34,160 nucleotides of DNA, taken from the NCBI RefSeq assembly GCF_900113415.1, contig NZ_FOPH01000027.1:1-34160 (forward strand). The letters run 5' to 3'. This DNA comes from Oribacterium sp. WCC10 (GTDB taxonomy: Bacteria > Bacillota > Clostridia > Lachnospirales > Lachnospiraceae). This document shows positions 341 through 25,082 of this stretch, piece by piece. Below the pieces are notes generated by a model. That model was given only the letters and a program-made list of their open reading frames with translations, had not been told where the DNA came from and did not search any database. How positions within the stretch are numbered: position 1 is the first letter of the stretch; every line of letters starts with the position of its first letter. The translations under genes and the position numbers were made by a program.

Positions 341-1486
341 TCATCCGGCACTGAGTGTCATACCGGCTTTGATGAACCTGAACATACGGACAGCACCCTT
401 ATAATAGAGATCTTCTGCATTATCAAGAGCATCCTTCAACGGCATTGGTCCGTCAACAGTTGTCATGATGGAGCTGATACCATGCTCATAGATCTTCTCA
501 TAGTCAGGGCCAAGACTTCCGCAAAGCGCAGCCACCGGCACCTGATGATTCTTCGAACGATCCCCTATACCCTGCATAACCTTTCCGAAGCAGGACTGCC
601 AGTCGGTTCTGCCTTCACCGGTTACAACAAGATCAACTCCCTTTAAACGTCCATCAAAGTCAATGAGATCAAGTACCGTATCGATACCGGATTTCATCTC
701 TGCTTTCAGGAATACCTTAAGAGCGGCTCCCAGACCTCCGGCAGCACCGGTTCCCTGAATCTCATCGGGATTGATACCGAATTCTTTAATGATCACATCC
801 CTATAGTTCTTCATTCCGCTCTCAAGCTCATCCAGTATCTCAGGAGTACCGCCCTTCTGTTTTCCAAAAGTATAAGTCGCTCCGTCAGGACCGCAAAGAG
901 GATTGGTTACATCACACATAACAGTGAAATGAGCATTCTTCACAGCAGGATCAAGACCGGTGACATCTATATGTCGTACTTTTACAAGGTCACTGCCCTT
1001 TCCTTCAAGTTCCTTACCATCTTCATCTATAAATCTTATTCCGAGAGCTCTTGCAAATCCCATGCCGCCATCGTTTGTGGCCGAACCACCGATGGCAATG
1101 GCTATATCTGTATAACCCTCGTCAAGAGCCGCTTTAAGAAGCTCTCCTGTTCCATAAGTAGTTGTATTTAACGGATTTCTTTTATCTTCAGGAACCATAG
1201 GAAGTCCTGAGGCTGCTGCCATCTCAAGTATGGCCTCTTTATCCGAAAGCTTTCCGTAGAAGGCATGTTCCGTTTCCATGAGCGGTCCATGGACATCAAC
1301 ATTAACAATCTCACCATGTCTTGCTTTAACTACAGCTTCTGTTGTTCCCTCACCGCCATCAGCAACGGGAACACCATCCGTCTCACACTCTCCAAATACC
1401 TCGCGAACCGCCTTATTGAGCAATTCGATGGTCTGGTCACTTGATAAAGTTCCCTTAAATGAGTCTGATGCAAATAAAAATTTCAT
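341..1486 (-). CDS. garK: Glycerate 2-kinase (GarK family)
   Basis: The product is 381 aa, the usual length of the GarK/GlxK family. It opens with the characteristic ASDSFKGTLSS segment and carries the Gly-rich IAIGGSATNDGGMGFARALG-type stretch (about residues 131-150) and VTGEGRTDWQS (about 288-298) that mark glycerate kinase. It phosphorylates D-glycerate with ATP, in this family to 2-phosphoglycerate, which enters glycolysis. Its start is preceded by GAGGAAT, and the stop of the upstream PPC gene lies only 12 nt away, so the two are almost certainly cotranscribed and possibly translationally coupled. It is the last gene of the island and supplies the final step after tartronate semialdehyde reductase. 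Confidence 0.95.
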   Translation of the reverse strand: MKFLFASDSFKGTLSSDQTIELLNKAVREVFGECETDGVPVADGGEGTTEAVVKARHGEIVNVDVHGPLMETEHAFYGKLSDKEAILEMAAASGLPMVPEDKRNPLNTTTYGTGELLKAALDEGYTDIAIAIGGSATNDGGMGFARALGIRFIDEDGKELEGKGSDLVKVRHIDVTGLDPAVKNAHFTVMCDVTNPLCGPDGATYTFGKQKGGTPEILDELESGMKNYRDVIIKEFGINPDEIQGTGAAGGLGAALKVFLKAEMKSGIDTVLDLIDFDGRLKGVDLVVTGEGRTDWQSCFGKVMQGIGDRSKNHQVPVAALCGSLGPDYEKIYEHGISSIMTTVDGPMPLKDALDNAEDLYYKGAVRMFRFIKAGMTLSAG

Positions 1487-2048: not shown

Positions 2049-2939
2049 TCAGTCTTCCCTGACGGAAACACCGGTCATTCTCTCATAGTATCTTACAATA
2101 TCATCATGATCGCAGTCAGCCTCATCATGATTCATAAGCTCCTGCATAACTTCCATCATATGTGCTGTCATAGGAACAGGCATGTTGATTGCATGAGCGG
2201 CATTTAATGCATTGGTGAGATCCTTGATATGAAGTTTGATGCGGAATCCCGGATTGTAATTTCCGGAAAGCATCATAGGAGCCTTGGCATCAAGAACTGT
2301 TGAGCCTGCCAATCCGCCTCTGATAGCTTCGTAAACAAGTCTCGGATCAGTTCCGGCCTTCTTTGCAAAGGTTAATGCCTCTGCAACAACACCGATGTTT
2401 GCAGCAACAATCATCTGGTTCGCGAGCTTCGCAACATTTCCGGAACCGCTTGGTCCTACATAAACAACTGATGAAGCCATCGCCTTAAGTACTGATACGT
2501 ACTTGTCAAATGTTTCCTTCTTTCCGCCGACCATAACAGAAAGTGTTCCGTCAATAGCCTTTGGCTCACCACCTGATACAGGACAGTCAAGCATATCGAT
2601 ACCCTGTTTTGCAAGCTCTGCAGATATCTTCTGTGATTCAACCGGATCGATAGATGACATATCAAGAACTGTCACATCTGATCTGCCGCCTTCGATGACA
2701 CCGCCTGCTCCAAGTGTAACCTCACGAACCTGTGGGCTGTTTGGAAGCATGGTGATGATTACTTCACATCCCTGCTTTACTTCATCTGCTGCATTCCTGG
2801 CACCTTTCGCTCCAAGAGCAACAAACTCATCTATAACTTCCCGCTTATGTGTTGTAACAACTACATCATGTCCTGCCTTGATAAGGTTCTTAGCCATCGG
2901 CTTACCCATGATTCCAAGTCCGACAAATCCTATCTTCAT
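2049..2939 (-). CDS. garR: 2-hydroxy-3-oxopropionate (tartronate semialdehyde) reductase, copy 1
   Basis: This 296-aa member of the beta-hydroxyacid dehydrogenase family reduces tartronate semialdehyde to D-glycerate. It shows the N-terminal Rossmann motif GFVGLGIMGKPMAKN (about residues 4-18), the substrate-binding DMSSIDP and PVSGGEPKAIDGTLSVMVGG segments, and the catalytic Lys in GNVAKLANQ (about 171). The start at 2939 is chosen from AGGAG about 7 nt upstream; an ATG 27 nt earlier lacks one and would add residues absent from the paralogue at 7419-8309. After strand beta-2 it reads TTHKR (29-33), where copy 2 has YDFNQ. Loss of the acidic residue and gain of Lys/Arg suggest NADPH preference. 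It is followed by the PPC gene and garK on the same strand. Confidence 0.93.
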   Translation of the reverse strand: MKIGFVGLGIMGKPMAKNLIKAGHDVVVTTHKREVIDEFVALGAKGARNAADEVKQGCEVIITMLPNSPQVREVTLGAGGVIEGGRSDVTVLDMSSIDPVESQKISAELAKQGIDMLDCPVSGGEPKAIDGTLSVMVGGKKETFDKYVSVLKAMASSVVYVGPSGSGNVAKLANQMIVAANIGVVAEALTFAKKAGTDPRLVYEAIRGGLAGSTVLDAKAPMMLSGNYNPGFRIKLHIKDLTNALNAAHAINMPVPMTAHMMEVMQELMNHDEADCDHDDIVRYYERMTGVSVRED

Positions 2940-3369
2940 ATCTTTTCTCCTCTTCTCAGGAAACATCCTGTATAGTTCCTGACGGATGGTTCCTTCACAA
3001 TATTAAAGATCCTGTTAATCGCTGTTTTTCTTTTGTCCGCGTAGAAAATCATCGCATTAAGTTTATCTTTACCTTAAAGATCACTATTACTCTCTGAAAT
3101 CATCATTTCTTCTTTGGTAATCTTTACGATCATATCTTATTAAATATCTCATTTATAAACAATCTCAAATCATCACAAAGGACGTCAGTAATTTTGCTTC
3201 ATACGTCAAAACAATTCGAGACATTTCAAATAGTTTCAATACAGCTCATATTCTGTCAAAATACATCAGAATCCGACCATACATGCTGAATTGCAGATGA
3301 GATCCAAGTCGAGGTGCCGGTTTGTAAGGTGAGATGCGGCCATCCATCCCTCATCATCACACACCCGGT
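2940..3369. other. 430-bp non-coding region between regulator and garR1
   Basis: No credible gene is seen on either strand. It is AT-rich, with several TTTGAAAT / TTGAAAC-like words on the minus strand and a short inverted repeat, GACGT-N17-ACGTC, near 3181-3207. A perfect TTGACA on the minus strand (plus 3254-3259) has no good -10 at normal spacing. No terminator is visible after the regulator gene, so read-through into garR1 is possible. No -24/-12 (sigma-54) promoter was recognised. Confidence 0.4.
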
Positions 3370-4950
3370 TCAAAGTATGTCATATCTCTTCAGTTTTCTC
3401 CAAAGTGTTGTTTTGCTTATTCCAAGCTCTGCAGCGGTTTTCTCTCGATTTCCCATGTTTTTGCTGATGATCTTTAGTATGCGATCCCTTTCAAGATCCT
3501 GAACAGTCAGGTTACGGATAACCCTTTTCCCGTTCCCGGAAAACTCCGCCATTCCGAAATCCTCTTTTTTGTCATAAATAGTCTCATCCACCATGTCACC
3601 GCTTTCACTACAGTTCTCAGCAACCTCAGAAAGTCTGTCTACGGTTTCTTTTCCATAAAGCTCATCATATAGTTCTTTTATATCTGCCGCCTTCAGGTTT
3701 CTGTGCTCTGCGCTTATAACAAGTCTCTCTATAAAACTTTCAAGCTGAATCCTACCTCCATTCCATCCATGAAGCTCCAGTTCCTTCTCTCCGTCCTTTG
3801 TAAGAATATGATACTTTCCATAGCGTTCCGTCACGCTCTGCATATAGACATTGGCAAGATATGCGATGTCCTCAGGTGTCTCCGAAAGAGACGGGATTTT
3901 GATGACAAATGCAGACATCCTTGCGTAAAGATCGGGTATGAAATGAACCATGTAGTTTTCATTCTTTGCCACCATGATGACATGCCTGAACATCAGGATC
4001 TCAAGCAGTTTCTTTTGCGATCTTTCATCCAGATACTCTATATTGTTTATAACGAGGGAACCCTTAAGAGAATCATTGACCTTTCCATTACGACCGTATA
4101 GATCATCATAGGCAGACTTACCCTTCTCACAGTCATAAATAACAAGTTTTTCCTTTGAGTGTTTCGAGCTGTTATGTATGGCATTGATAAAGGCTCTATG
4201 AAGATTTCCCACAGGTTCAACGATAATCTTTGGACAATCCGTCTTTGAAAGCTTTTCCGCAAGATCCACAGCTTTCTGCATCTTCTGACTCTTATATGGA
4301 AAATTCACAAATGAATTATCTTCTTTACCTGCTCCCTTTTCCTTAATGCGTATACCATTAACCGGTATCTCGCCGTTCTCAAATGTATCCGCAAGGAGAA
4401 ATGCCTCTTTGATGGCATTTTTCACCGCATCCTCAGTATTTGCGAGATACAGCGCCGGTATTCCTGCATTATCTGCCATGCTGAGAACCGTGGATCCCCC
4501 TATGATAAGGTCTGCTTTGTCCTCTATCGCCTGCATGGCAGCAGATTTCAAAAGCTCAGGATTCTGTATAAGATACTCTCTTAAGTTGACTCCACACTTT
4601 TCTCCTATACCGGTCATATCACAGGCCATATTTTTGGACATGACTATAGCGATATTAGGATTCTTCTTCCCTAAAATCCGCTTCGCCCTTTCAAGCATAT
4701 TTATGAGTCCCTGTCGCGTCATGATTATCTCCACAACAGAAACATCCGTATACTGTTTTATGACTGTGGCCTGAAGACCTCTCGCTATAATGATGTCTGC
4801 CCCCTGGTTTATGGCCTGACGGGCTTCTGTCACTGCACTTTCCGTTTCAATTACTTTCATCAGAAAAAGACGCTTCTTCATTTCCTGCAGAACATCATGG
4901 GAAAGTCTGAACAGTTCATCATTGGGTACCAGTAGCGCTATATTCGCCAT
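3370..4950 (-). CDS. PrpR_N-type transcriptional regulator with degenerate sigma-54 AAA+ domain
   Basis: The 526-aa product has three parts. Residues 1 to about 185 match a PrpR N-terminal sensor fold (two Rossmann-like lobes, with the ADIIIARG motif typical of that family). Residues about 220-430 keep the outline of a sigma-54 activator AAA+ module. A Fis-type helix-turn-helix ends the protein (about 488-526, NREKTAAELGISKTTLWRKL). The AAA+ part is broken at every key site. The Walker A loop is replaced by EPVGNLHRA (245-253) with no Gly-Lys, the GAFTGA loop is deleted, and Walker B LFLDEI has become LVINNI (299-304). It should therefore neither hydrolyse ATP nor remodel sigma-54 holoenzyme. 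GGAGGAGAT lies directly before the ATG. As the gene upstream of garR1-PPC-garK, it probably controls the island in response to a small acid; ligand unknown. Confidence 0.85.
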   Translation of the reverse strand: MANIALLVPNDELFRLSHDVLQEMKKRLFLMKVIETESAVTEARQAINQGADIIIARGLQATVIKQYTDVSVVEIIMTRQGLINMLERAKRILGKKNPNIAIVMSKNMACDMTGIGEKCGVNLREYLIQNPELLKSAAMQAIEDKADLIIGGSTVLSMADNAGIPALYLANTEDAVKNAIKEAFLLADTFENGEIPVNGIRIKEKGAGKEDNSFVNFPYKSQKMQKAVDLAEKLSKTDCPKIIVEPVGNLHRAFINAIHNSSKHSKEKLVIYDCEKGKSAYDDLYGRNGKVNDSLKGSLVINNIEYLDERSQKKLLEILMFRHVIMVAKNENYMVHFIPDLYARMSAFVIKIPSLSETPEDIAYLANVYMQSVTERYGKYHILTKDGEKELELHGWNGGRIQLESFIERLVISAEHRNLKAADIKELYDELYGKETVDRLSEVAENCSESGDMVDETIYDKKEDFGMAEFSGNGKRVIRNLTVQDLERDRILKIISKNMGNREKTAAELGISKTTLWRKLKRYDIL

Positions 4951-5391: not shown

Positions 5392-6246
5392 TTACTGCAT
5401 ATCAAGATATTCCTTGCGGGTCGGCGCAGGATATGCCTTGTCTATGAGAGCAAGTTCCTCTTCTGTCAGTTCAATACTGTCTGCATGAGCATTGGACAGA
5501 GTATGCTCGGGTCGCGAACTCCTTGGTATAGCGATGGTATGTCCGTTCCTTATGTTCCACGCAAGAAGGATTTCCGGTACAGCTACCCCGTATTTCTTGG
5601 CAATTTCCTCTAAAGTATGATTCTGCATGAGACCTCTCTTCAGTGAACCTGCCTGGGCAAGCGGACAGTAGGACATAAGTGCCACATTATGCTCCAACAT
5701 CCAAGGAAGCAAAGAGTACTCTATACCTCTTGAACCTGTATGATAAAGAACCTGATTCACAAGGCAGTTCTTTCCATCCGGTACACTCCAAAGTTCCTCC
5801 ATGTCATCTATATCAAAGTTAGAAACGCCCCATGCTTTGATAAGACCCTCTGCTCTAAGCTCCTCAAGTCTTGAAACTGTCTCTGAAAGCTTAAAGGAAC
5901 CTCTCCAGTGATAAAGATACAGGTCAAGATAATCCACTCCCATGCGGGAAAGACTTCTTTGAAGAGCCTGACGCATTCGTTTTCCGCCTGCATTTGTGGG
6001 AAGAACCTTTGAAACCAGATATAGACTTTTCCTGTCAACGGTACTGATTGCTTCGCCAAGCATATCCTCTGCTGCACCGTTTCCATACATCTCAGCTGTA
6101 TCAATGAGCGTCATTCCCGCTTCTATACCCTTACGAATACCATCTATCTCTCTTTTTCTCTGAAGACTGCTCTCACCGAGATACCAGGTGCCCTGTCCGA
6201 GAGCCGGTACTTTTATGCCATTTCCAAGTGTAACTTCATGTTTCAT
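5392..6246 (-). CDS. Aldo/keto reductase
   Basis: This 284-aa, full-length aldo/keto reductase is an NAD(P)H-dependent TIM-barrel enzyme that acts on aldehydes or ketones. The catalytic tetrad is intact: Asp49 and Tyr54 in LIDTAEMYGNG, Lys80 in LVSKVLP, and His113 in LYLYHWRG. The C-terminal cofactor motif IAIPRSSRPEH is also present. It resembles the bacterial 2,5-diketogluconate-reductase/YeaE branch. GGGAGG precedes the ATG. It lies 99 nt after the DapA-like aldolase gene on the same strand with no terminator between, so it probably shares that transcript. Its substrate may be a sugar-acid or aldehyde intermediate, but the sequence does not say which. Confidence 0.9.
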   Translation of the reverse strand: MKHEVTLGNGIKVPALGQGTWYLGESSLQRKREIDGIRKGIEAGMTLIDTAEMYGNGAAEDMLGEAISTVDRKSLYLVSKVLPTNAGGKRMRQALQRSLSRMGVDYLDLYLYHWRGSFKLSETVSRLEELRAEGLIKAWGVSNFDIDDMEELWSVPDGKNCLVNQVLYHTGSRGIEYSLLPWMLEHNVALMSYCPLAQAGSLKRGLMQNHTLEEIAKKYGVAVPEILLAWNIRNGHTIAIPRSSRPEHTLSNAHADSIELTEEELALIDKAYPAPTRKEYLDMQ

Positions 6247-6345: not shown

Positions 6346-7245
6346 TCAGATGAGACCGGCTTCCTTCATAACCTTCCTGAAATAATCAAGTGTTGCAGCA
6401 TTTGTTGTTGGAAGTGATGGCAGATAAGGATCTCCTACATTTTCACCGCGGATGTTAGCCATATCCTTTGCGGCCACAGGGAATGAAGCCTTGTCCATAG
6501 CAAGACGAACAGGATTAAGCTTGAACTGAGCCTCACGTGAACCCTCAAAATCACCGGCTACGTACTTATTGTAAACATCGCCTATAAGCTCAGGCATGAA
6601 GTTTCCTGCAGTACATACGCCGCCTACAGCTCCAAGACAAAGAGATGCAAAAAGAAGTGTGTCCTTTCCTCCGAATACCTTGAAGTTAATGTCTCTGTTT
6701 CTTCTGATAAACTCCTCTGTAAGTGTGATATCTCCTGAGGTATCCTTCATTCCCACGATGTTTGGAACCGCATGGGCAATCTCTGTTACAAAGTCTGCGG
6801 TCATTCCATATCCCACACGCCCCGGATTGTTGTAAAGAAGAACAGGTGTCTCCGGAACAGCTTCGGCTATAGCCTTAAAATGATTGAAAAGTTCATCATG
6901 TGTAGGCTTCAAAAACATTGGCTGGAGAATGGAAACGCAGGCAGCTCCGTTTGCTACTGCCATCTTTGCCAGACGGATGCACTTCTTTGTATTGATGGCA
7001 CCGATTCCGAAATATACAGGAACTCTGCCGGCAGCCTGATCAACCATAATCTTGAGTCCTCTCTCCATCTCCGATTCTTCAAGCTGGTAGAACTCACCGT
7101 TTGAACCGAAAGCAAGAATTCCCTGAAGTCCGCCGTTGATAACATAATCAACCTGCTTTCTCATTCCTGCTTCGTCGATTTTCTCATCCTTATCGATAAC
7201 TGTGATGATAGGTACCACAACACCTTTGATAAAATCTGTATTCAT
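6346..7245 (-). CDS. DHDPS/N-acetylneuraminate-lyase-fold aldolase, candidate 5-keto-4-deoxyglucarate aldolase
   Basis: The 299-aa product is a class I (Schiff-base) TIM-barrel lyase of the DapA/NanA family. It has GSNGE (47-51, in place of the usual GTTGE), the catalytic Tyr138 in VLLYNNPGRVGYG, and the Schiff-base Lys167 in NIVGMKDTSGD. The start at 7245 follows AAAGGAT; the earlier ATG at 7269 has no ribosome binding site. Known functions in this family include dihydrodipicolinate synthase, KDG aldolase, sialate lyase and 5-dehydro-4-deoxyglucarate dehydratase (KdgD). The cluster has GarD, GudD, GarR and GarK but no GarL and no alpha-ketoglutarate-semialdehyde dehydrogenase. Retro-aldol cleavage to pyruvate and tartronate semialdehyde therefore fits better than the KdgD reaction. 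The exact reaction is inferred. Confidence 0.85.
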   Translation of the reverse strand: MNTDFIKGVVVPIITVIDKDEKIDEAGMRKQVDYVINGGLQGILAFGSNGEFYQLEESEMERGLKIMVDQAAGRVPVYFGIGAINTKKCIRLAKMAVANGAACVSILQPMFLKPTHDELFNHFKAIAEAVPETPVLLYNNPGRVGYGMTADFVTEIAHAVPNIVGMKDTSGDITLTEEFIRRNRDINFKVFGGKDTLLFASLCLGAVGGVCTAGNFMPELIGDVYNKYVAGDFEGSREAQFKLNPVRLAMDKASFPVAAKDMANIRGENVGDPYLPSLPTTNAATLDYFRKVMKEAGLI

Positions 7246-7324
7246 AAGATATCCTTTCGTATTAAACATTTTTCAAAATATAAAAACGCTCTTCACCCGA
7301 GCTGAATTTCCTTTTTATGCTTTG

Positions 7325-7418: not shown

Positions 7419-8309
7419 TTACTTCTTTACGATTGAAACGCCTGTCATTCTCTCATAGTATCTTACGATGTCATCATGATCGCATGATCCCTCATCGTGA
7501 TTCTTAAGCTCCTGCATTACTTCCATCATCTGAGCTGTCATAGGAACAGGCATATTGATGGCATGAGCAGCATTAAGGGCATTGGTGAGATCCTTGATGT
7601 GAAGGTCGATTCTGAATCCCGGCTTGTAGTTGCCTGAAAGCATCATAGGAGCCTTTGCATCCATAACTGTTGAACCTGCAAGACCGCCGCGGATAGCCTG
7701 ATATACAAGCTCAGGATCTGTTCCTGCCTTCTTGGCAAATGTAAGTGCCTCTGCAACGATACCGATGTTTGCAGCAACAACCATCTGGTTTGCGAGCTTT
7801 GCAACATTTCCTGAACCGATAGGTCCAACGTATACTACTGAACCTGCCATAACCATGAGCATGTCATAGTACTTGTCAAATGTCTCCTTCTTTCCTCCAA
7901 CCATTACAGAAAGTGTTCCGTCGATAGCCTTTGGTTCACCGCCTGATACAGGAGCATCAAGCATATCTACGCCAAGCTTCTCAAGATCTGCAGAAATCTT
8001 CTTTGACTCAACCGGGTCGATGGATGACATATCGATGAGAACTGACTCACCTTTACGGAAGCCCTCCGCAAGACCCTTCTCATTAAATACAGCAGCGCGT
8101 ACATGTGGTGAGTTTGGGACCATTGTGATAACAACATCAGCAAACTCCGCAAGATCCTTGCCGCAGGTACCTGCCTTTGCTCCACAGGAAGCAACATCAT
8201 TTACCGCCTCCTGATTGAAATCATAAACCATAAGCTCATGACCGGCCTTTAAAAGATTCTTTGCCATCGGACGACCCATGATACCAAGTCCAAGAAAACC
8301 AACTTTCAT
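7419..8309 (-). CDS. garR: 2-hydroxy-3-oxopropionate reductase, copy 2
   Basis: This second 296-aa tartronate semialdehyde reductase is paralogous to the one at 2049-2939. The C-terminal half (from about residue 108) is nearly the same in both, whereas residues about 25-105 have drifted to roughly half identity. This copy keeps Asp30 after beta-2 (VYDFNQ), as in Escherichia coli GarR, which favours NADH. The Rossmann motif GFLGLGIMGRPMAKN, PVSGGEPKAIDG and the catalytic GNVAKLANQ Lys are intact. GAGGATTTTCAG precedes the start. It lies downstream of the MBL-fold gene and tctCBA1 on the same strand, with a 257-nt AT-rich gap that may hold its own promoter. Confidence 0.93.
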   Translation of the reverse strand: MKVGFLGLGIMGRPMAKNLLKAGHELMVYDFNQEAVNDVASCGAKAGTCGKDLAEFADVVITMVPNSPHVRAAVFNEKGLAEGFRKGESVLIDMSSIDPVESKKISADLEKLGVDMLDAPVSGGEPKAIDGTLSVMVGGKKETFDKYYDMLMVMAGSVVYVGPIGSGNVAKLANQMVVAANIGIVAEALTFAKKAGTDPELVYQAIRGGLAGSTVMDAKAPMMLSGNYKPGFRIDLHIKDLTNALNAAHAINMPVPMTAQMMEVMQELKNHDEGSCDHDDIVRYYERMTGVSIVKK

Positions 8310-8566: not shown

Positions 8567-9403
8567 TCATTTCATCAGTGCCTTCACCTGACGCACTCTC
8601 TCATCGATAAAATCCGCCCAGACCGTATCGTCGAGATAAGGCTGACTCTCATGAGTATATGATCCCGCCCTGTCCATTATTTCTATCTGATTCGGATGTG
8701 ACGGAAGTGCTATATCCACATGAATCTTCTTTAACTTCTCTGCATCATTAAAGAAGCGTTCTCTAAGATCAGGAGTCAGGTATTTGCTGGTGCTGTAATA
8801 ATCATCGTTCATGGTATTGGCACCCACACCACCATGCATTGCAACAGTGTAGGTTTCACCTGTCACAGGATTCTTTTCATCCCAAAAGAAACTGGTACAT
8901 CCGATCGTATGACCCGGGGTAAGAAGTGTACGTATGGAAATGTCTCCGAGAGTTATGGCATTATCATCACTGTAATGCTTATCCACTCTGATATGCTGAA
9001 CATGCCACATATCGTGAGGCAGTTCTGTTTCCTCAGGCACCTTCTGCATGAATTCATCATCTTCCTTTGACATATATACAGGAGCACCGGTAAGGTGATG
9101 CATAATGGCAGCTCCTCCGAAGTGATCAAGATGAGCATGACTTATGAGTATCATCCTTATATCTGACATTCTGTATCCCAACTTATAAATGGAGTCCACC
9201 ATCATATAAGCACTTTCCGCAATACCGGTATCCAACAGTATAAGTCCGGCACCGGTATCAATGATATATGCACCCACCCATGTCTGACCTCCCACATAGT
9301 AGGTTCTGGGTGAAACCTGAAAAGGTTCCACCGCATATTTCCACGGCTCTTCACAGAGGGTCCGTACAGGATCCGGCAGAGCCTTTGAACATCTGAATGG
9401 CAT
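8567..9403 (-). CDS. Metallo-beta-lactamase-fold hydrolase, subclass-B3-like, cytosolic
   Basis: The 278-aa product has the HAHLDH zinc motif (His89, His91, Asp93, His94), His165 in LTPGHTIG, and a late His236 in ALPSHPNQ. The usual bridging Asp of glyoxalase-type members is missing; the segment reads VAMHGGVG. The terminal His and the VGGQTWVGAYIIDT opening follow the subclass B3 layout. There is no signal peptide, so a periplasm-type beta-lactamase role is unlikely. AAGGAATTTTT precedes the ATG, and the gene lies 121 nt after tctA1 on the same strand. In an aldarate operon a lactonase acting on aldarolactones is a reasonable guess, but the substrate is not visible from sequence. Confidence 0.8.
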   Translation of the reverse strand: MPFRCSKALPDPVRTLCEEPWKYAVEPFQVSPRTYYVGGQTWVGAYIIDTGAGLILLDTGIAESAYMMVDSIYKLGYRMSDIRMILISHAHLDHFGGAAIMHHLTGAPVYMSKEDDEFMQKVPEETELPHDMWHVQHIRVDKHYSDDNAITLGDISIRTLLTPGHTIGCTSFFWDEKNPVTGETYTVAMHGGVGANTMNDDYYSTSKYLTPDLRERFFNDAEKLKKIHVDIALPSHPNQIEIMDRAGSYTHESQPYLDDTVWADFIDERVRQVKALMK

Positions 9404-9524: not shown

Positions 9525-11039
9525 TCACGCGGCAGTATCCACTTTCTTATCTTCTTTCTTTACGACCCTGGCGAAAACCATCTTTATGACAGGCGAGAAC
9601 ACACAGCATATTGCGATAACATTAAACACACATGAAATAGGGCGGGTGAAGAATGTTGCAACTGTTTCAGTGTTTTGGAATGCCTTAAGCATATTGCTTT
9701 CCATGGTCGGTCCGAGGATAAATGCAAGGATCAGCGGTGACTGGGGCAGTCCGCCGTAAGCCATGATACAACCGATAACAGCGAAGAACAGCATCATTCC
9801 GCACTTATAAAGTGATGATGAATCAACATAGGCACTGATAAGAGAAACCACGATAAGCGCCGGATACATATAATGATATGGCACCTTCAGAATCTGTGGG
9901 AACACCCTCATTCCGATAGCCTGAAGCACAAAGCAAACTGCCGCACAGATGGCAACAACCACAAACATAAGGTAAACGATGTCACCACTGTTTCTGAAAA
10001 CCATAGGTCCCATTTCAAGCCCGTGAATGGTAAGAGCACCTATAAGGAGGGCTGTACATGAGTCTCCCGGGATGCCGAGAGCCGCCATAGGAATCATGGC
10101 GCCACCGATGGAAGCATTGTTGGAACACTCGGAAGCCCAGACGCCCTCCGGATTACCTGTTCCGAAAGCCTCAGGATGTTTTGAATTGTTCTTTGCCATA
10201 GAGTAGGCAACAAGATTGGAAAGTCCTGAGCCCATGCCCGGAAGGAATCCGATTCCAAGTCCGATAAGAAAAGAGCGGATAATGTTTACGATATTTTCTC
10301 TTATATCAGAGAATTTGATACCTATTCCCTTTATCATGTTGGTGTCAACTGTTGGCAGCGGATCAAAACCCTTTGCATGAGCGATGATCATCATGCTCAC
10401 ACCGAAGATACCGATGAGAACCACAGTCATACCGAGGCCGCCCATAAGGTACATATTGTCAAAGGTAAATCTGGCTTGCGCATCTATAGGTGAATAGCCG
10501 ACTGATGCAAGAAGGAGTCCGAGACAGGCACTTGAAAGGCCCTTAAGCATATTGCCCTTTGAAATGGCAAGCACCATTGTGATAGCCATGAAGCAGAGGC
10601 CGAAATACTCCCATGGACCAATAGCAAATGCAATATTTGCAACAGTCTGTGCCAGGATGGCGCCTACTACCGCACTGAAAAATGTTCCTATAAACGACGC
10701 TGTCATACCTATGGCCAGGGCTCTTCCCGCCTGTCCCTTTTTAGCCATAGGATGCCCGTCAAAGCAGGTTGCAACAGACGAAGGCGAACCCGGAATACCA
10801 AGAAGAACAGATCCGATAAATCCGCCTGAGCATCCCCCGATCCAAAGTGATAAAAGAAATACTATCGCCGGGCCTGTGGACATTCCGTAAGTAAGTGGCA
10901 TGAATAGCATAACCGCCATGGTTCCGTTAAGTCCCGGGATTGCACCAAACACGATTCCGATAACATTACCAACAAGTAGAAGTAACAGGTTAAGAGGATT
11001 CGTGATCTGTGCAATGATAAACGCTGCATTTTCCAACAT
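9525..11039 (-). CDS. tctA: Tripartite tricarboxylate transporter, large permease subunit (TctA), system 1
   Basis: This is a 504-aa polytopic membrane protein of the TctA family, with about 12 hydrophobic segments. Family signatures are GAIPGLNGTMAVMLFMPLTY near residue 33 and GIPGSPSSVATCFDGHPMAKKG near 82-103. A second-half repeat follows, GFLPGMGSGLSNLVAY near 265-280, with ALGIPGDSCTALLIGAL near 320. It forms the main channel of a secondary, binding-protein-dependent importer with TctB and TctC. GGGGAGGAATAGAA precedes the start. Only 16 nt separate it from tctB1 upstream. Genomic context (garR, gudD, garD) points to aldarates rather than citrate as substrate; inference. Confidence 0.93.
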   Translation of the reverse strand: MLENAAFIIAQITNPLNLLLLLVGNVIGIVFGAIPGLNGTMAVMLFMPLTYGMSTGPAIVFLLSLWIGGCSGGFIGSVLLGIPGSPSSVATCFDGHPMAKKGQAGRALAIGMTASFIGTFFSAVVGAILAQTVANIAFAIGPWEYFGLCFMAITMVLAISKGNMLKGLSSACLGLLLASVGYSPIDAQARFTFDNMYLMGGLGMTVVLIGIFGVSMMIIAHAKGFDPLPTVDTNMIKGIGIKFSDIRENIVNIIRSFLIGLGIGFLPGMGSGLSNLVAYSMAKNNSKHPEAFGTGNPEGVWASECSNNASIGGAMIPMAALGIPGDSCTALLIGALTIHGLEMGPMVFRNSGDIVYLMFVVVAICAAVCFVLQAIGMRVFPQILKVPYHYMYPALIVVSLISAYVDSSSLYKCGMMLFFAVIGCIMAYGGLPQSPLILAFILGPTMESNMLKAFQNTETVATFFTRPISCVFNVIAICCVFSPVIKMVFARVVKKEDKKVDTAA

Positions 11040-11055
11040 TTCTATTCCTCCCCTC

Positions 11056-11514
11056 TTATCCGAATATTCCCATCGGAAGCTGATATCCGAAAGCTATCTG
11101 ATATGCCAGAAAGATCACTGCCGTCATACCTAGTGAAAATATGATCCTTGTCACCGGCTTTGTTTCATATCCTTTTGCATACCAGGTTGATAATGCATAA
11201 AGATATACAGGTGTGGCTATGAAGAAACCAAGGTACTTCATTACAAGGATATATGCAGCGATGGCAACGATATTTACGATGAGTTTTATCCAGCCTTCCT
11301 TTACAAGGAAAGTCTTTTCGACCTTATTCCTGCAGCCTTCCAAAAAAATCCCTGCACCGCAGATGACAAAGCCAATGGCTGCAAGTCCGGGTAATGCTTT
11401 GGGACCGGGGTAGCTTGCTTTAAACGGAACTTTAAAACTGCTGATCATCACGAATACAAATATGCCGAGAGCCACAATCACAGCTCCGGTTATCTGATCT
11501 CTGGTAACCTTCAT
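11056..11514 (-). CDS. tctB: TTT small permease subunit (TctB), system 1
   Basis: This is a 152-aa membrane protein with four hydrophobic segments, typical of TctB. It has the family-like GPKALPGLAAIGFVICGAG segment after the first helix. I start it at 11514 (MKVTRDQITG) because AAGGAG lies 8 nt upstream. The longer reading from 11577 has no ribosome binding site and adds a charged, non-conserved leader. TctB subunits are poorly conserved, so the call rests on size, topology and its place between tctC and tctA. Confidence 0.88.
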   Translation of the reverse strand: MKVTRDQITGAVIVALGIFVFVMISSFKVPFKASYPGPKALPGLAAIGFVICGAGIFLEGCRNKVEKTFLVKEGWIKLIVNIVAIAAYILVMKYLGFFIATPVYLYALSTWYAKGYETKPVTRIIFSLGMTAVIFLAYQIAFGYQLPMGIFG

Positions 11515-11602
11515 TATCAATCTCCTTTTATACTCTTTAAGCCCAGCATAAGCCGGGATCATCCGGTTTTTTTCCATATTATGCAGGACTTATATAAGTA
11601 AT

Positions 11603-11635
11603 GCCCACATCGTTCCGCTCAGAAACAATGTGAGC
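11603..11635 (-). other. Intercistronic hairpin after tctC1
   Basis: In minus-strand RNA a 14-bp stem with three G-U pairs and a 5-nt loop (UGAGC) begins 10 nt after the tctC1 stop. The wobble pairs form only in the sense RNA. No U-tract follows. It probably protects the binding-protein mRNA or slows read-through, giving more TctC than TctB/TctA. Confidence 0.6.
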
Positions 11636-11645
11636 ATAATAGTCA

Positions 11646-12641
11646 TTACTTCTGTACAAGTCCAAGTTCTTCAACTACTGAGTTGATACTTGCCTGCATA
11701 TCCGCAAGCTTCTTTGGACCTTCTTCATATGGCAGGAACTCCATAGCCATGCCTGCAGGCTCAAGAACCTCATTTACCGCCTTGCTCTGTGCGGCCGCTG
11801 CATATGCATCATAAAGCTTCTTTGCAACTGCCTCATCCATGTCCTTAGGTCCTGCAAAGATATTGTAGGAAACAAAAGAACAGTCAATGCCGGATTCCGT
11901 AAGAGATGGTACATCAGGAAGAACTGAAGATCTTGCACCCTCTTCACCGTTTGTGACAACAGCAAGAGCATTTGCCTTACCTGACTCAACATACTGCTTG
12001 GCCTGATTAACATTAACGATGCAGGCATCGATGGTATTTCCAACAAGTGCTGTAAGCTTCTCGGTATCTGATCCTGACTCAACATACTTGACATTGATTC
12101 CCGAAGCCTTGGCCATTAGTCCTGTGATAACATGTGTTGTTCCGCCTGTCTCGATACCCATCTTAATCTCACCGGACTTACCCTTGCTTACGAAATCATC
12201 AATCGTCTTCATATCTGAATCAGCAGAAGTTACAAGAATATACTGTCCCTTTTCTGTTCCCTGGCTTACTGCGAAGACCTTGAAATCATCAGTGGCAGTC
12301 TTGTCATAAACCTTTGTGGCAGACTTGATAAGCATTGACGCATGATACTGAAGGATTTTTGCGCCATCGCCCTTTGCCGTACGAACCGTCTCCATGGAAA
12401 CTACTCCACCACCGTCAGTATTGTTAACTATAGTTACATTTGATCCTGTCTGTGTGGCTACCTCCTGACCAAGGGTTCTTGCCATGACATCGGTTCCGCC
12501 GCCTGCCTTTGCAGGAACCTGAACCTCAATATTCTTCGGAAGTTCACCTGATGTTTTAGCGCCACCTGAAGCGCCGCAACCCATAAGTGCAGCAGACATA
12601 GCCGCGATAACCAATCCTGTTAACAGTCTCTTTTTGTTCAT
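11646..12641 (-). CDS. tctC: TTT substrate-binding lipoprotein (TctC), system 1
   Basis: The 331-aa product has a lipoprotein signal peptide (MNKKRLL, hydrophobic core, lipobox LMGCGA with Cys22). It then shows the TctC (Bug family) hallmark IEVQVPAKAGGGTDVMART, which resembles the P/AGGGTD motif binding one carboxylate of the ligand. GGTTHVITG and the conserved IDACIVN region follow in the second lobe. It is anchored outside the membrane and delivers a carboxylated ligand to TctBA. TCAGGAGGACGA precedes the start. It is the first gene of the tctCBA1 operon and divergent from lysR1, with a TATAAT -10 at 12829-12834. Confidence 0.93.
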   Translation of the reverse strand: MNKKRLLTGLVIAAMSAALMGCGASGGAKTSGELPKNIEVQVPAKAGGGTDVMARTLGQEVATQTGSNVTIVNNTDGGGVVSMETVRTAKGDGAKILQYHASMLIKSATKVYDKTATDDFKVFAVSQGTEKGQYILVTSADSDMKTIDDFVSKGKSGEIKMGIETGGTTHVITGLMAKASGINVKYVESGSDTEKLTALVGNTIDACIVNVNQAKQYVESGKANALAVVTNGEEGARSSVLPDVPSLTESGIDCSFVSYNIFAGPKDMDEAVAKKLYDAYAAAAQSKAVNEVLEPAGMAMEFLPYEEGPKKLADMQASINSVVEELGLVQK

Positions 12642-14209: not shown

Positions 14210-15559
14210 TCACCTTACAAGGCAAGGCTTCTTATGATCATATTTCCACCCAGGAATCAGGTACTGCATAGACTTCGCATCATCCCTGTCATGACTCGGA
14301 AGACTTTTGTAGAGCCTGTTAGCCTCCATAACCCTATCCATATTGAGATGAACTCCGAGCCCCGGAGCGTCAGGAACCTGAAGCTTACCATTCACGATCT
14401 TAGGAGTATCATAAAGAAGATTCTGACCATCCTGCCAGATCCAGTGTGTGTCGAGAGGTGCAGGTGTACCTACCGCTGCGGCACCCACCTGAGCAAAAGC
14501 AGCAAGAGTAATATCAAAATGATTGTTGGAGTGAACGCCCCATGTAAGTCCCCATGACTCAAGAAGCTGGGACATGCGGACAGCACCGTCAAATCCCCAG
14601 AAATGAGGATCCGCAAGTATGATGTCACAGGCGTTCTGGCTTACAGTGTGATAGAACTGTCTCCAGTCTGTCGCTATCATGTTGGTTGCAACCTGGAAAC
14701 GGGTTGCATTCTTAAACTCACGCATTATCTCACGGCTTGAATAACCTGCCTCAGGTCCGCAAGGATCCTCCATGTATGTGATCACATCGTGCATATCCCT
14801 GCATAGTTCTATAGCTTCTTTCAGACTCCATGCGCCATTCGGATCAATATTAATACGGGCATCCGGGAACCTCTTCTTAAGTGCTCTGCAGGCATCCATT
14901 TCGTCTGATCCCGAAAGAACTCCACCCTTAAGCTTAAAGTTCTTAAAACCATACTTTTCGGATACTGCCTCAGCCTCTTCAACTATTCTCTCAGGTGTAA
15001 GTATCTCTTCACGTCTCAGTCTGAACCATGGATCAAGACTGTTACTTTCATCAAGATACTGCATATCCCCAACAGGAACCTTTTTCTTATCGGAAACGTA
15101 GAAAAGATACCCTAGCATCTCTACTTCTTTTCTCTGCTGTCCCTCGCCCAAAAGATCACACATTGGAACACCAAGGAACTGCCCCATCAGATCCATCATG
15201 GCACACTCGATAGCCCACTCGCTCTTTACAACAAATTTAAGCTTTGAAATATCAAGAGTCTGTATCCCCTCTCCATCATCTTCCGTTGCAGGATTTCCAA
15301 TCCTGTGAATCTTCTGAAGTATCTGGCGATACTTTGATACAGGCTGTCCCTCCACAAGAGGGCGTACTGCATTTAAACAATCACAAGTATAATCTCCTCC
15401 ATGAATCTCGCCTACACCCTGATGTCCGGCATTATCCTCCAGTACAACAAGATTTCTTGTAAATGCAGGCGCATGGCATCCAGATAATGTCATCAGCATG
15501 CTGTCAAAACCCGCAACGGGAATGACTTTCATTTTTGTAATAACCGGTGTGTCTGTCAT
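14210..15559 (-). CDS. gudD: Glucarate dehydratase, diverged paralogue (GudD/GudX-like)
   Basis: This 449-aa enolase-superfamily dehydratase belongs to the glucarate dehydratase group. Metal ligands and catalytic residues are present: the double Lys in NFKLKGG, DPNGAWS, MEDPCG, the Asn of VATNMIATDW, DPHFW, and the His of HSNNHFD. It ends in the family tail [11 protein letters not shown]. It should dehydrate D-glucarate (and/or L-idarate) to 5-keto-4-deoxyglucarate. Compared with the copy at 20413 it differs around QTLDISKLKF (usually QTFDLRT) and has GEIHGG for GE(V/I)PGG, so substrate range may differ, as in E. coli GudX. AAAGGAAATGAG precedes the ATG. It appears monocistronic, with a terminator-bearing leader. 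Confidence 0.9.
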   Translation of the reverse strand: MTDTPVITKMKVIPVAGFDSMLMTLSGCHAPAFTRNLVVLEDNAGHQGVGEIHGGDYTCDCLNAVRPLVEGQPVSKYRQILQKIHRIGNPATEDDGEGIQTLDISKLKFVVKSEWAIECAMMDLMGQFLGVPMCDLLGEGQQRKEVEMLGYLFYVSDKKKVPVGDMQYLDESNSLDPWFRLRREEILTPERIVEEAEAVSEKYGFKNFKLKGGVLSGSDEMDACRALKKRFPDARINIDPNGAWSLKEAIELCRDMHDVITYMEDPCGPEAGYSSREIMREFKNATRFQVATNMIATDWRQFYHTVSQNACDIILADPHFWGFDGAVRMSQLLESWGLTWGVHSNNHFDITLAAFAQVGAAAVGTPAPLDTHWIWQDGQNLLYDTPKIVNGKLQVPDAPGLGVHLNMDRVMEANRLYKSLPSHDRDDAKSMQYLIPGWKYDHKKPCLVR

Positions 15560-15879: not shown

Positions 15880-16845
15880 TTATACTCCAAGATTCTCTGC
15901 CAGTTCCAATATCATCTTTAACTCCGGATATGGATCAAATGTCAGACTCTGCTCAGTGGGAGCCGAACTTGTGGAAACTGCCATTGCAAGGAATCTGCTG
16001 CGAATGTAAACATCCACTATATTCCCACGAACACTTACCGCAATTTTACCGGGAGTATATTTATCGATATCTTCAAATCTCGCCACAAATTTTTCGGGCG
16101 GCAGCATTCTGATCTTCTGTGCCATTGCAGGTATCAATGCATTATCCTCTGCATCTTCATGCTCTTTTTTCCTGCACTGCCCTACATAAAGATAGTAATT
16201 CCCGTTAAGTCCTATCTCTGAAACAGGGACCTTCTTAAGGTTATTCTGTTCTTCATAGAACTTCTGCTGCATAACAGTAGGAACTGCATCCTCTTCAAAC
16301 ATTCTGAAGTCATAACGGGTATTCTCCGGAAGCTCTATATGTGTCCAGCATCCACAGTTCTGAAAGACGCGTTTCTTTCCTCTTGTACCACTGTCCTTTA
16401 ACCTGAAGTCCTCACTTATGACAACATCTGATACTGTGACCTTCATGCCCCGACACTCTCCCTGAACAGTTTCATAAAAGGAAACTCCATCCTGTCCAGG
16501 AAGTACCGGAACCAGCTGAGCCACTTCAATCTCTTTTTTTGTGAGCTGCTCCGATCCGTTTTTCATTACTTCATTCGTTCCCAGCAGTCTTGCAATCGTA
16601 AAAAGGACATTGCTCTCATTCACATCAGATATATACTGTTTTTCAAAAGGCCTGAAGAATAACAGATGGTACGCAACCGCCGCAAGTAAGAGTCCGAAAC
16701 TGACAGGATATTTTTTCACTATTATGGCTATCACGGCCACAACAAGTATTCCTATAAGTCCGAATGCTCTGAATTTAAAATTAATATGTCGCTCCCTCAG
16801 CTCTCTTACAGTTTCTTCCAATGTTTCAAAATTCACCCGTTTCAT
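15880..16845 (-). CDS. Membrane protein of unknown function (DUF3137-like)
   Basis: The 321-aa product is not recognised with certainty. Two closely spaced hydrophobic segments (about residues 27-43 and 48-64) follow a short charged N-terminus with a predicted helix. The rest is a soluble, mixed alpha/beta region. The segment around VSFYETVQGECRGMKVTVSDVVI, with the later FRMFEE and RFEDIDKYTPGKI stretches, recalls DUF3137 proteins; that match is from memory and weak. The ribosome binding site is poor (GGGTAAAT). It lies between the tctA2 terminator and gudD1 and is flanked by repeat elements on both sides, so it may be unrelated to aldarate metabolism. Confidence 0.75.
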   Translation of the reverse strand: MKRVNFETLEETVRELRERHINFKFRAFGLIGILVVAVIAIIVKKYPVSFGLLLAAVAYHLLFFRPFEKQYISDVNESNVLFTIARLLGTNEVMKNGSEQLTKKEIEVAQLVPVLPGQDGVSFYETVQGECRGMKVTVSDVVISEDFRLKDSGTRGKKRVFQNCGCWTHIELPENTRYDFRMFEEDAVPTVMQQKFYEEQNNLKKVPVSEIGLNGNYYLYVGQCRKKEHEDAEDNALIPAMAQKIRMLPPEKFVARFEDIDKYTPGKIAVSVRGNIVDVYIRSRFLAMAVSTSSAPTEQSLTFDPYPELKMILELAENLGV

Positions 16846-16885
16846 ATTTACCCGTATATCCCTGACATCCTTGAATTCAAATACC

Positions 16886-16916
16886 AGGGAAACACTGATT
16901 ATATCAGCGTATCCCT
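16886..16916. repeat. Solitary hairpin related to the MITE-like element end
   Basis: AGGGAAACACTGA-TTATA-TCAGCGTATCCCT matches the terminal hairpin of the elements at 5180 and 15727. It lies just upstream of the DUF3137-like gene and is probably a remnant or solo unit. Confidence 0.5.
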
Positions 16917-17043
16917 AAGTCTCTTCCACATAATGAAATGCAAGCGTGAAGATATTTGCAGCACTATCGGCAGTATAACTGTACCAGGCACCTGATTTGT
17001 GCTTACCGGATGTAAATGGGATCAATCCTTTCTCATGACTCTA

Positions 17044-17085
17044 TAAAAGATCAGGGACGTGCATATATGCGCGTCCCTGAAAAAT
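17044..17085 (-). terminator. Terminator after tctA2
   Basis: TCAGGGACG (17051-17059) pairs with CGTCCCTGA (17072-17080), with an inner GCATATATGC and a TCTTTTA tail on the minus strand. It ends the gudD2-tctCBA2 operon. An A5 run after the right arm adds U-pairing on the left. Confidence 0.75.
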
Positions 17086-17094
17086 ATACTATCG

Positions 17095-18570
17095 TTAAGC
17101 CGCAGCTTCAACCTTTTTTCTGGCCTTCTGCTTACGATCATCCATAACAGCATAAACTATCGATGCTATTATCAATACCCATATAACCCAACCTATAGGT
17201 CTTGAGAAGAAAACAAGGAGTGATCCCTTGGATGCTGATACTGCCTGAATGAAGTAATTCTCAAGATCCTTACCAAGGATAAATCCTATAAGGAAACATG
17301 TCTTTGGAATACGAATCTTTCCAAAAAGATATCCGACTATTCCGGCGATAAGCAGTGACCACACATCAAACATTCTTCCATTTTTGGCAGCATATGCTCC
17401 CACTACACAGATCATGATGATAACCGGATACAGTCTCTGTCTTGGAATGTAGATGATCTTTGAAATCCACTTGATAGGATAGAACATGCAAAGGAACATG
17501 ATTATGTTACAGAGAAGCATTGCAAGGAGGATCTGATGCCATGTCTCTGTATTCTGTGTGATAAACAGTGGTCCCACCTGTATACCCTGAAGCATGAAGG
17601 CCGAGATCAATATAGCAGTTGTAGAGTCACCCGGGATACCAAGTGAAAGAAGCGGTATCATAGCTCCGCCGGTAAGTCCATTATTTGAACTCTCTGATGC
17701 AACAAGACCTTCCGGCACACCCTGTCCTAGAAGTTCAGGATGCTTTGACCAGCTCTTTGCCTGTGAATAAGCAAGTATGGAGGCAGCCGAACCGCCAACT
17801 CCAGGAAGAACTCCCATAAATGTACCTATGATAGAAGATCTCACAAGATTAACACCCTGTCCCTTGAGATCGGACAATGAGAACTTTGTTCCCTCATTAT
17901 TTCCGTCGACCTTTTCTATCTTAAACCGCATGCCTTCTTCTGCTTCCTCAAAAATCTGAGAAATGGCGAAAAGTCCGATAAGAACCGGAAGAAGCTGGAA
18001 ACCGTCAGACAGATATGCTTTAAGAGCCGAAGGTACCATACGATAGGAGTTATTTACACTGAACATTCCGATAAGTGAAACAAGCACTCCGAAAAATCCT
18101 GCAAACACGCCTCTCAGCATCTGACCATTGGAAAGGGCTGCAATTACTGTAAGAGCAAAAAGAATGATAAGGAACTTTTCAACTGCTGAAAACTTGAGTG
18201 CTGCTGCTGAAAGAAGCGGAGTAAACAGAGCCAGTGCGATAAGAGAAATGATTCCTCCGATGAAGGATGAAAGTATACCTATCTTAAGTGCTCTCTCACC
18301 TTCACCACGCTTAGCCATTGGATATCCGTCAAATGTAGTTGTGATGGAGGATGGTGTTCCCGGAATATTGATTAGAATTGCCGGAACAAGTCCGCCGGAA
18401 ATACCACCGATATAAAGTCCTAAAAGAAGATATAAAGCAGGTACAAGATCATAAGCATATGTCATGGGCAGGAATACCGCCACAGCCATGGTTGCAGTCA
18501 TACCCGGAATGGCACCAAAGATAATTCCGGCAATGACACCAAGTACTGCAAGTAAAATATTAGTAATCAT
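17095..18570 (-). CDS. tctA: TTT large permease subunit (TctA), system 2
   Basis: The 491-aa TctA-family permease has GAIPGMTATMAVAVFLPMTYA near residue 20, GTPSSITTTFDGYPMAKRG near 70-88, GVLPGVGGSAASILAYSQAKSW near 248, and LGIPGDSTTAILISA near 308. It is the main membrane subunit of a sodium- or proton-coupled, binding-protein-dependent importer. AAGGAGTGGCTAACA precedes the ATG, and 14 nt separate it from tctB2. The operon begins with gudD2, so its substrate is most likely glucarate or a related aldarate. It is clearly a different lineage from tctA1 (9525-11039), not a recent duplicate. Confidence 0.93.
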   Translation of the reverse strand: MITNILLAVLGVIAGIIFGAIPGMTATMAVAVFLPMTYAYDLVPALYLLLGLYIGGISGGLVPAILINIPGTPSSITTTFDGYPMAKRGEGERALKIGILSSFIGGIISLIALALFTPLLSAAALKFSAVEKFLIILFALTVIAALSNGQMLRGVFAGFFGVLVSLIGMFSVNNSYRMVPSALKAYLSDGFQLLPVLIGLFAISQIFEEAEEGMRFKIEKVDGNNEGTKFSLSDLKGQGVNLVRSSIIGTFMGVLPGVGGSAASILAYSQAKSWSKHPELLGQGVPEGLVASESSNNGLTGGAMIPLLSLGIPGDSTTAILISAFMLQGIQVGPLFITQNTETWHQILLAMLLCNIIMFLCMFYPIKWISKIIYIPRQRLYPVIIMICVVGAYAAKNGRMFDVWSLLIAGIVGYLFGKIRIPKTCFLIGFILGKDLENYFIQAVSASKGSLLVFFSRPIGWVIWVLIIASIVYAVMDDRKQKARKKVEAAA

Positions 18571-18584
18571 TGTTAGCCACTCCT

Positions 18585-19022
18585 TTAATAAATAGTGAAT
18601 CCCTGATTTACGAATGTAATCGTAAACATACCGTTTGGAAGTGTGATCTTAAAGAATACGCCAAATGCTATGCTGACTATCAAAGAGGCAACAACCGCAA
18701 TCAAAAGGCTGATTCCTATGGATTTAGGACTTGTACCGGCATAAAGAATATTGAAGAGAAATACAAATATTATGCTGGTAAGCGTAAATCCGATGATGTC
18801 AAGAGTAACAATATATCCCACGAACAGGACTAGCGTTCCAAAAAGCTTTATGAAATCAGGATTATCTTTAAAGAACTTTTTCGGCATTGAGAAGAATGCC
18901 TCTCCCTTTGCTACACGGGCACGTCCTTCTGTGATAATGATAGCTGCGAGAAGAATGCATAAAATGCAGATGACGATTCTCGGAACTATCCAGTGCTCGG
19001 TAGAATAAACTACATTTATCAT
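18585..19022 (-). CDS. tctB: TTT small permease subunit (TctB), system 2
   Basis: This 145-aa protein has four hydrophobic segments, the size and topology of TctB, and lies between tctC2 and tctA2. Its ribosome binding site AAGGGG (plus 19029-19034) stands 6 nt before the ATG. It is partly enclosed in a small CCCT / AGGG hairpin, which might lower its translation relative to neighbours. The identification rests mainly on context and topology because TctB sequences diverge widely. Confidence 0.87.
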   Translation of the reverse strand: MINVVYSTEHWIVPRIVICILCILLAAIIITEGRARVAKGEAFFSMPKKFFKDNPDFIKLFGTLVLFVGYIVTLDIIGFTLTSIIFVFLFNILYAGTSPKSIGISLLIAVVASLIVSIAFGVFFKITLPNGMFTITFVNQGFTIY

Positions 19023-19046
19023 ATATATCCCCTTATATATAGGGTG

Positions 19047-19083
19047 TGCCTTTTCACAAATATTTCATGTTTGTGAAAAGGCA
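19047..19083 (-). other. Intercistronic hairpin after tctC2
   Basis: A perfect 14-bp stem (TGCCTTTTCACAAA / TTTGTGAAAAGGCA) encloses a 9-nt loop and can be extended past a small bulge by TAGG / CCTA. It lies 56 nt after the tctC2 stop and has no U-tract, matching the position of similar hairpins after the other two binding-protein genes. Confidence 0.65.
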
Positions 19084-19138
19084 TCCTATACTCTCTTATT
19101 ACTTAGTGAACAACTGATATGGTCAGGAGTTATCTTAA

Positions 19139-24773: not shown

Positions 24774-25082
24774 AAATAACTCCCATCTGTACGCATAAAA
24801 CCATTTAGCTGATTCCATCTTTTTATCTTTTCCGGAAGCTGAATAATGCTTTATATAAGCTATTCAGGCTATGGTCAATACGCATCTTCAAATTGTCTGC
24901 AATCATTTACAAAACTTTTTGTTCCGTGTAAAATGAGTATAATTGCGTCGGTCGAGTAAGTAAAATTAATAATCATTAACCATCTATAAGTTTTGCTAAT
25001 TCTACAATATTTTGCATTTTATTCAAATAACGAATTATTTATCAAAACCACGTAAAGATCATTTAAGTTCTAAGAGGATTCT
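24774..25082. promoter_or_regulatory. Divergent promoter garD / lysR3 with LysR-type inverted repeat
   Basis: The half-site ATAAGTTTTGCTA (24986-24998) faces an imperfect partner, AAGTAAAATTAAT (24958-24970; 10 of 13 positions fit), 15 bp away. It is followed by ATTCTACAATATTTTGCAT (24999-25017). Both half-site and box closely match the gudD2/lysR2 region, suggesting that LysR 2 and LysR 3 recognise similar DNA. No gene is in the region. Confidence 0.55.

Follow-up and report, generated by a model that had tools for sequence, protein, structure and literature searches.

A predicted DHDPS-fold 5-keto-4-deoxyglucarate aldolase of the GudL type in an Oribacterium sugar-diacid cluster, and two candidate sister clades in Clostridia

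The sugar-diacid gene cluster

The window, meaning the whole 34,160-nucleotide stretch of Oribacterium sp. WCC10 DNA analyzed here, makes up a complete contig in an assembly of 3.64 Mb (53 contigs, 97.38% complete). A first-pass annotation had described in it GarD, two GudD, two GarR and GarK. These assignments are borne out by the NCBIfam scores, some of which lie below the equivalog cut-offs, and the cluster reads as follows.

341–1486, minus strand: garK/glxK-type glycerate kinase (TIGR00045, 440.4 bits; 42.6% to E. coli GarK)
2049–2966, minus strand: garR1, tartronate semialdehyde reductase (TIGR01505, 384.2 bits, cut-off 340.75; 73.9% to garR2)
3370–4950, minus strand: PrpR_N/sigma-54-activator-like regulator (PF06506, PF00158, PF02954)
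5392–6246, minus strand: aldo/keto reductase downstream of gudL (PF00248), also present in other GudL loci
6346–7245, minus strand: gudL, predicted DHDPS-fold 5-keto-4-deoxyglucarate aldolase (PF00701; residues; GudL clade at 100/100)
7419–8309, minus strand: garR2, tartronate semialdehyde reductase (TIGR01505, 389 bits, cut-off 340.75; 61.2% to E. coli GarR)
8567–9403, minus strand: metallo-beta-lactamase (MBL)-fold hydrolase between the TTT genes and garR2 (PF00753)
9525–12641, minus strand: TctA1-TctB1-TctC1 tripartite tricarboxylate transporter (TTT; PF01970, PF07331, PF03401)
14210–15559, minus strand: gudD1, more diverged glucarate dehydratase family member (TIGR03247, 619.3 bits, cut-off 828.7; 51.2% to gudD2)
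15880–20278, minus strand: second TTT system, made up of TctA2, TctB2, TctC3 and a possible binding protein, as in the next four lines
15880–16845, minus strand: possible binding protein, 321 aa, with no Pfam match at E up to 0.001
17095–18570, minus strand: TctA2 (PF01970)
18585–19022, minus strand: TctB2 (PF07331)
19139–20278, minus strand: TctC3, named from its position (PF03401 at 20.9 bits, below the cut-off of 27)
20413–21744, minus strand: gudD2, glucarate dehydratase (TIGR03247, 719.1 bits, cut-off 828.7)
23250–24818, minus strand: garD, galactarate dehydratase (TIGR03248, 717.9 bits, just below the cut-off of 730.85; 52.8% to E. coli GarD)

Both GudD proteins and GarD thus fall below their equivalog cut-offs, and no other NCBIfam model comes close. 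Of the glycerate kinase models, GarK passes that of the subfamily and neither of the two equivalogs.

The gudL gene encodes 299 residues within an enclosing open reading frame at 6346–7269 (minus strand), across which the opposite, plus strand has five stops. Its ATG at 7245 has AAAGGA 6 bases upstream, and aligned relatives share this start position. The first reading had placed the lyase between garR2 and garR1; this order is correct, with two further genes, the aldo/keto reductase and the PrpR_N/sigma-54-type regulator, before garR1.

The first TTT system is a candidate sugar-diacid importer, and the protein at 15880–16845, judged by its position beside the second system, is probably a diverged binding protein. 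A TctABC for galactarate/glucarate has been predicted in Halomonas (PMC5507952; also the review PMC5812351); as in the window, a TTT transporter sits there in a sugar-diacid cluster, the Halomonas case being predicted from genomes only. TTT transport of sugar diacids was accordingly rejected as a novelty of the window (PMC5507952). For the MBL-fold hydrolase, our guess would be a sugar-diacid lactonase.

Several minor features accompany the cluster. A PCC-domain protein (PF03479) at 1499–1972, between garR1 and garK, recurs in some further sugar-diacid loci, L041, L044, L046, L074 and L161 (L and G numbers denote loci and genomes of the surveys below). The aldo/keto reductase recurs in or near GudL and clade-2 clusters, for example L041–L046, L056, L091, L107, L108, L120, L153 and L155. 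An ABC-F protein at 29931–31676 exceeds the NCBI cut-off for the ribosomal protection-like ABC-F (452.6 versus 380 bits).

Identity of the lyase

The sole Pfam match of the protein is PF00701 (DHDPS, 195.2 bits). It had been described as a class I lyase of the DapA/NanA family with Tyr138, Lys167 and GSNGE, and these residues are exact: GSNGE spans 47–51, and S48, M110, F111, Y138, R143, K167 and K194 are present. Aligned with E. coli DapA, the window protein retains Arg138 and Lys161 as R143 and K167, and replaces Thr44 with S48, Tyr106 with M110, Tyr107 with F111 and Asp187 with K194.

Because dapA is the best NCBIfam match, one could take the protein for a housekeeping DapA, or for a sialate lyase, whose presence in the cluster is accidental. 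We regard this as barely credible. The protein scores 174.8 bits against the dapA model TIGR00674 (cut-off 206.15) and 111.8 bits against the nanA model TIGR00683 (cut-off 382), and DapA is encoded elsewhere in the genome, next to a DapB-like gene (L003). Furthermore, the Thr-Tyr-Tyr proton relay of DapA, which we take to be T44, Y107 and Y133 in E. coli, is not found in the window protein, where S48, F111 and Y138 stand at those columns.

Phylogeny points in the same direction. A tree was built from 51 hand-chosen rows: the window protein, 20 of the 80 named GudL loci described below and L032; eight of nine clade-2 genes (L160, cut off by a contig end, was omitted) and seven clade-3 rows (six genomes, L161 and L145 being the same gene); and six PdxA-neighbour proteins, two DapA, three KdgD and three ungrouped rows (L151, YagE and NanA). 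The 22 GudL rows, including the window protein, form one clade (100/100), apart from KdgD (100/100), DapA (99/99), NanA and YagE. The tree was rooted at the midpoint, and the placement of NanA, YagE and E. coli DapA, all on long branches, is unsure. The comparison with KdgD, NanA and DapA had been proposed by the first-pass annotation as a check, and the window protein groups with none of them. Membership in DapA, NanA and KdgD was rejected on curated model scores and the tree, and membership in YagE on the tree. In a profile search of solved structures, the matches listed (60 of 91) all bear the name of dihydrodipicolinate synthase or of a related protein (YagE, sialate lyase or a putative enzyme), and none of these is named GudL.

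What, then, takes the place of GarL? The absence of GarL, asserted earlier from the cluster, extends to the genome. The GarL model TIGR03239 gave no matches at E up to 0.001, and no garL, which the first reading had named as one finding that would overturn it, turned up elsewhere. The HpcH family model PF03328 has four matches, which were rejected as GarL one by one: two are CitE-like proteins (368.7 and 307.6 bits with citE as best model, below its cut-off of 443.4, each beside a PF06857 acyl-carrier reading frame), one is pyruvate kinase and one is a PEP-utilizing PTS enzyme I-type protein. Since the assembly is 97.38% complete, the absence is strong but not absolute. GarL of E. coli, an HpcH/HpaI aldolase, has the pathway step in common with GudL, but is of a different family, with 19.0% identity over 242 aligned residues and no meaningful similarity. 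The genome has two other DHDPS-family genes, the DapA of L003 and, in L002, a paralogue next to a gene of the PdxA family, and no further candidate 5-keto-4-deoxyglucarate (5-KDG) aldolase was found between them.

A replacement of GarL by a DHDPS-fold aldolase is already known, having been published in 2025 as GudL. Levy et al. (2025, PMC11775122) describe GudL of Enterocloster clostridioformis as a DapA-like protein whose gene shares an operon with garR, garL being absent from the genome. With this GudL, E. coli garL mutants regain the fermentation of glucarate and galactarate. The rescue is lost with K167A and M110A and reduced, though still present, with K194A; K167 is catalytic, and M110 and K194 are given as universally conserved in the GudL clade (PMC11775122). 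The window protein agrees with it in being DapA-like, in having M110, K167 and K194 at identical numbers, and in its garR neighbour and the lack of garL. The window cluster differs in its TTT (TctABC) transporters, where the ABC transporter GarABC is reported for E. clostridioformis (PMC11775122), and in having two garR, two gudD and, in addition, aldo/keto reductase and MBL-fold genes. Of the best 80 loci kept, none is named E. clostridioformis, and Enterocloster sp. L084 and L109, 76.6 and 78.3% identical to the window GudL and in the same clade of the tree, served as stand-ins. ‘Oribacterium’ is absent from the main text of PMC11775122, and our literature search on GudL and 5-KDG aldolase returned no paper on GudL besides Levy et al. 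2025.

We therefore conclude that the window gene is very probably gudL, a DHDPS-fold 5-KDG aldolase of Clostridia. The complementation by Levy et al., the shared residues and the position in the GudL clade support the non-orthologous aldolase proposed in the first reading, which was a correct independent reading of an already published enzyme, the publication having been missed there. Candidates for every other pathway step are present in the same cluster. Counting against the assignment are the dehydratase scores below the equivalog cut-offs and an isoleucine at position 110 in one of the best 80 relatives.

In the proposed pathway, GudD and GarD would dehydrate glucarate or galactarate to 5-KDG, whose C2 keto group would form a Schiff base with Lys167 of GudL. 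A retro-aldol cut by GudL would then give pyruvate and tartronate semialdehyde, the latter to be reduced to glycerate by GarR and the glycerate to be phosphorylated by GarK. R143 and K194 may hold the substrate carboxylates. Since the main text of PMC11775122 gives no purified-enzyme assay of GudL that we could find (‘in vitro’ does not occur, and ‘purified’ occurs twice, both times of DNA), we infer the chemistry and the two products.

KdgD shares fold family and substrate with GudL. It differs in its products, in a GGTGE motif and in forming a separate clade. The KdgD reaction, in which a dehydratase/decarboxylase converts 5-KDG to alpha-ketoglutarate semialdehyde, has thus to be weighed for the window protein. 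The superfamily is the same, KdgD models match at 98–105.6 bits and, as we see it, a rescue of garL mutants scored by medium acidification leaves the product unfixed. We nevertheless find this reading highly improbable. With the KdgD model TIGR03249 the protein reaches 98 bits (cut-off 373.95); it is 22.0–23.8% identical to three annotated KdgD proteins, which have the GGTGE motif (references taken from plasmid matches, 60 of 1528 records listed, all 1528 below 60% identity); and garR lies within 300 bp of gudL in 62 of the 80 best loci of 275 relatives. Moreover, KGSADH, the alpha-ketoglutarate semialdehyde dehydrogenase that would match KdgD, was not found in the genome. The first-pass annotation had noted its absence from the cluster, and genome-wide PF00171 has three matches in two genes, AdhE (scanned as a 258-aa piece) and ProA (in two pieces). 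Because these are the only aldehyde dehydrogenases found, the KdgD product would have no obvious outlet, which argues against the KdgD-type reaction independently of the rescue assay. 5-Dehydro-4-deoxyglucarate dehydratase KdgD, with its fold family and substrate, is the subject of a 2026 paper (PMC13398020).

The lyase could also act on another 2-keto-3-deoxy acid, its aldehyde being reduced by GarR2 or the aldo/keto reductase, with the true 5-KDG aldolase encoded elsewhere. DHDPS-fold aldolases are often promiscuous, and gudL is surrounded by its own TctABC, aldo/keto reductase and MBL-fold genes. This too we judge very unlikely: a homologue takes over from GarL in vivo, for glucarate as well as for galactarate (PMC11775122), and the remaining DHDPS-family genes of the genome, DapA and the PdxA-neighbour type, offer no other aldolase candidate.

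An aldolase of a different fold alters which bacteria count as able to use sugar diacids. As Levy et al. put it in the text of their paper, such use was earlier considered a pathogen trait, garL being missing from commensals able to do it (PMC11775122). For the window gene this point is already in print.

Conservation and distribution of GudL

The nearest named records are from Lachnospiraceae bacterium JC7 (98%) and from records named Oribacterium (90–97%), and a close gudL copy is present in 12 of 17 genomes of the genus (79–100%, two partial). A pattern scan of one collection gave 321 matches, of which 275 encode a relative, and the best 80 were retained as named loci. Among these, M110 is present in 79 and R143, K167 and K194 in all 80. 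The two peptide patterns include M110 and K194, and each locus contains at least one pattern, which biases the counts of M110 and K194; neither R143 nor K167 is covered by a pattern. In a pattern-free set, comprising 12 relatives from a whole-protein search and the window protein, M110, R143, K167 and K194 each occur in 13 of 13. As minor variation among the best 80 of 275, GSNSE replaces GSNGE in L066 and L082, and the one locus without M110 has I110.

The same 80 loci contain garR in 71 cases, within 3 kb of gudL in 69, and GudD or GarD in 41, many loci being short; of the nine that lack garR, four stop no more than 250 bp from gudL. Across 250 genomes of the family, GudL was found in 13 (66–100% identity, two partial; search cut-off 1e-60), and GarL above the TIGR03239 cut-off in none, the E. 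coli control passing. GarR exceeds its cut-off in 30 of the 250, including 12 of the 13 GudL genomes, and the two genes are at most 3 kb apart in 11 of the 13. Against a clean swap of GarL for GudL, five GudL genomes (G059, G127, G152, G165 and G209) have HpcH-family proteins below the cut-off (70–189 bits).

Two sister clades with similar neighbours

The fresh lead of this study is not the window gene, but two sister clades, 35–45% identical to GudL, which group with it at 95/90 in the tree. In two family genomes without GudL (G115 and G126), a DHDPS protein 39% identical to GudL lies directly beside a strong GarR. These two clade-2 genes were noticed through that adjacency, and all other clade-2 and clade-3 genes were found by sequence regardless of context. 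A search with one clade-2 protein (cut-off 1e-65, against 1e-60 for GudL, so that further clades may have been missed) found clade 2 in five of 250 family genomes and four of 291 class genomes, and clade 3 in six of the 291; L151, the only other match, falls in neither clade. Clade 2 (eight rows) has GTTGE, K143 and R194, with M110 in seven and F110 in L159. Clade 3 (seven rows, six genomes) has GSNGE, M110, K143 and T, S or Q at 194.

Neighbourhoods were examined in up to 20 kb per locus. All six clade-3 loci (L161–L164, L172 and L173) contain GarR, and all six GarD or GudD. The nine clade-2 loci contain GarR in seven (at a distance of 7–9 kb in L158 and L159) and GarD or GudD in five; in the complete, closely grouping loci L152–L157, each is found in five of six, L156 having GarR with no dehydratase nearby and L153 having GarD without GarR. 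The L155 cluster holds a glycerate kinase, an aldo/keto reductase, GarR, GudD, the clade-2 gene, TTT genes and GarD. L160, cut off by a contig end, has no aldarate genes in its locus. As a control, six of 16 other DHDPS-family matches were fetched with 5–20 kb each, and none of the six has these aldarate genes nearby; among the 16, some of them on short contigs, only that of G062 shares a contig with a GarR match, 1.2 Mb apart.

The deepest clade-2 members, L158 (G345) and L159 (G441), stand out. Each has an HpcH/GarL-like gene (about 128 bits) in its cluster, together with GarR and TctA/TctC in the same 20-kb stretch, and no GarD or GudD nearby. Their role may therefore differ, a hint of a different substrate, and the context of these two of nine clade-2 members counts against a 5-KDG aldolase role for the sister clades. 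HpcH relatives below the cut-off occur in five of the 15 sister-clade genomes (G054, G345, G441, G347 and G425), and GarL above the cut-off in none of the 15.

On balance we lean, by a modest degree, towards a group of three sister clades, all of them DHDPS-fold 5-KDG aldolases and GudL among them, in which clades 2 and 3 would stand in for GarL in other Clostridia. M110 would in that case mark the activity in all three, and K194 would be a trait of GudL only. Judged from sequence and gene neighbourhood, clades 2 and 3 plausibly comprise additional 5-KDG aldolases that the published M110/K194 definition does not cover. On the same three-clade reading, clade 2 would have the charged residues of R143/K194 exchanged, as K143/R194, and a MOFRL-type kinase would often accompany clade 3 instead of GarK. 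If this is true, some gud/gar-positive bacteria escape surveys that look for M110/K194 or for proteins closely similar to GudL, and the sister clades widen the set of likely sugar-diacid users. They would also offer a natural active-site series (R143/K194, K143/R194 and K143/T194) bearing on substrate choice.

Such genes can be mistaken for dapA. The dapA cut-off of 206.15 bits is passed by a small margin by all six clade-3 genes (216–226 bits) and by five of the nine clade-2 genes, and these may well be misannotated as dapA; a separate DapA at 306–354 bits is present in all 15 sister-clade genomes.

A protein of the MOFRL/DUF4147 glycerate 2-kinase family is found in four of the six clade-3 loci, the one identified in L164 scoring 271 bits (curated cut-off 550). 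In these four (L161, L162, L164 and L172) it lies between the clade-3 lyase and GarR, apparently replacing GarK.
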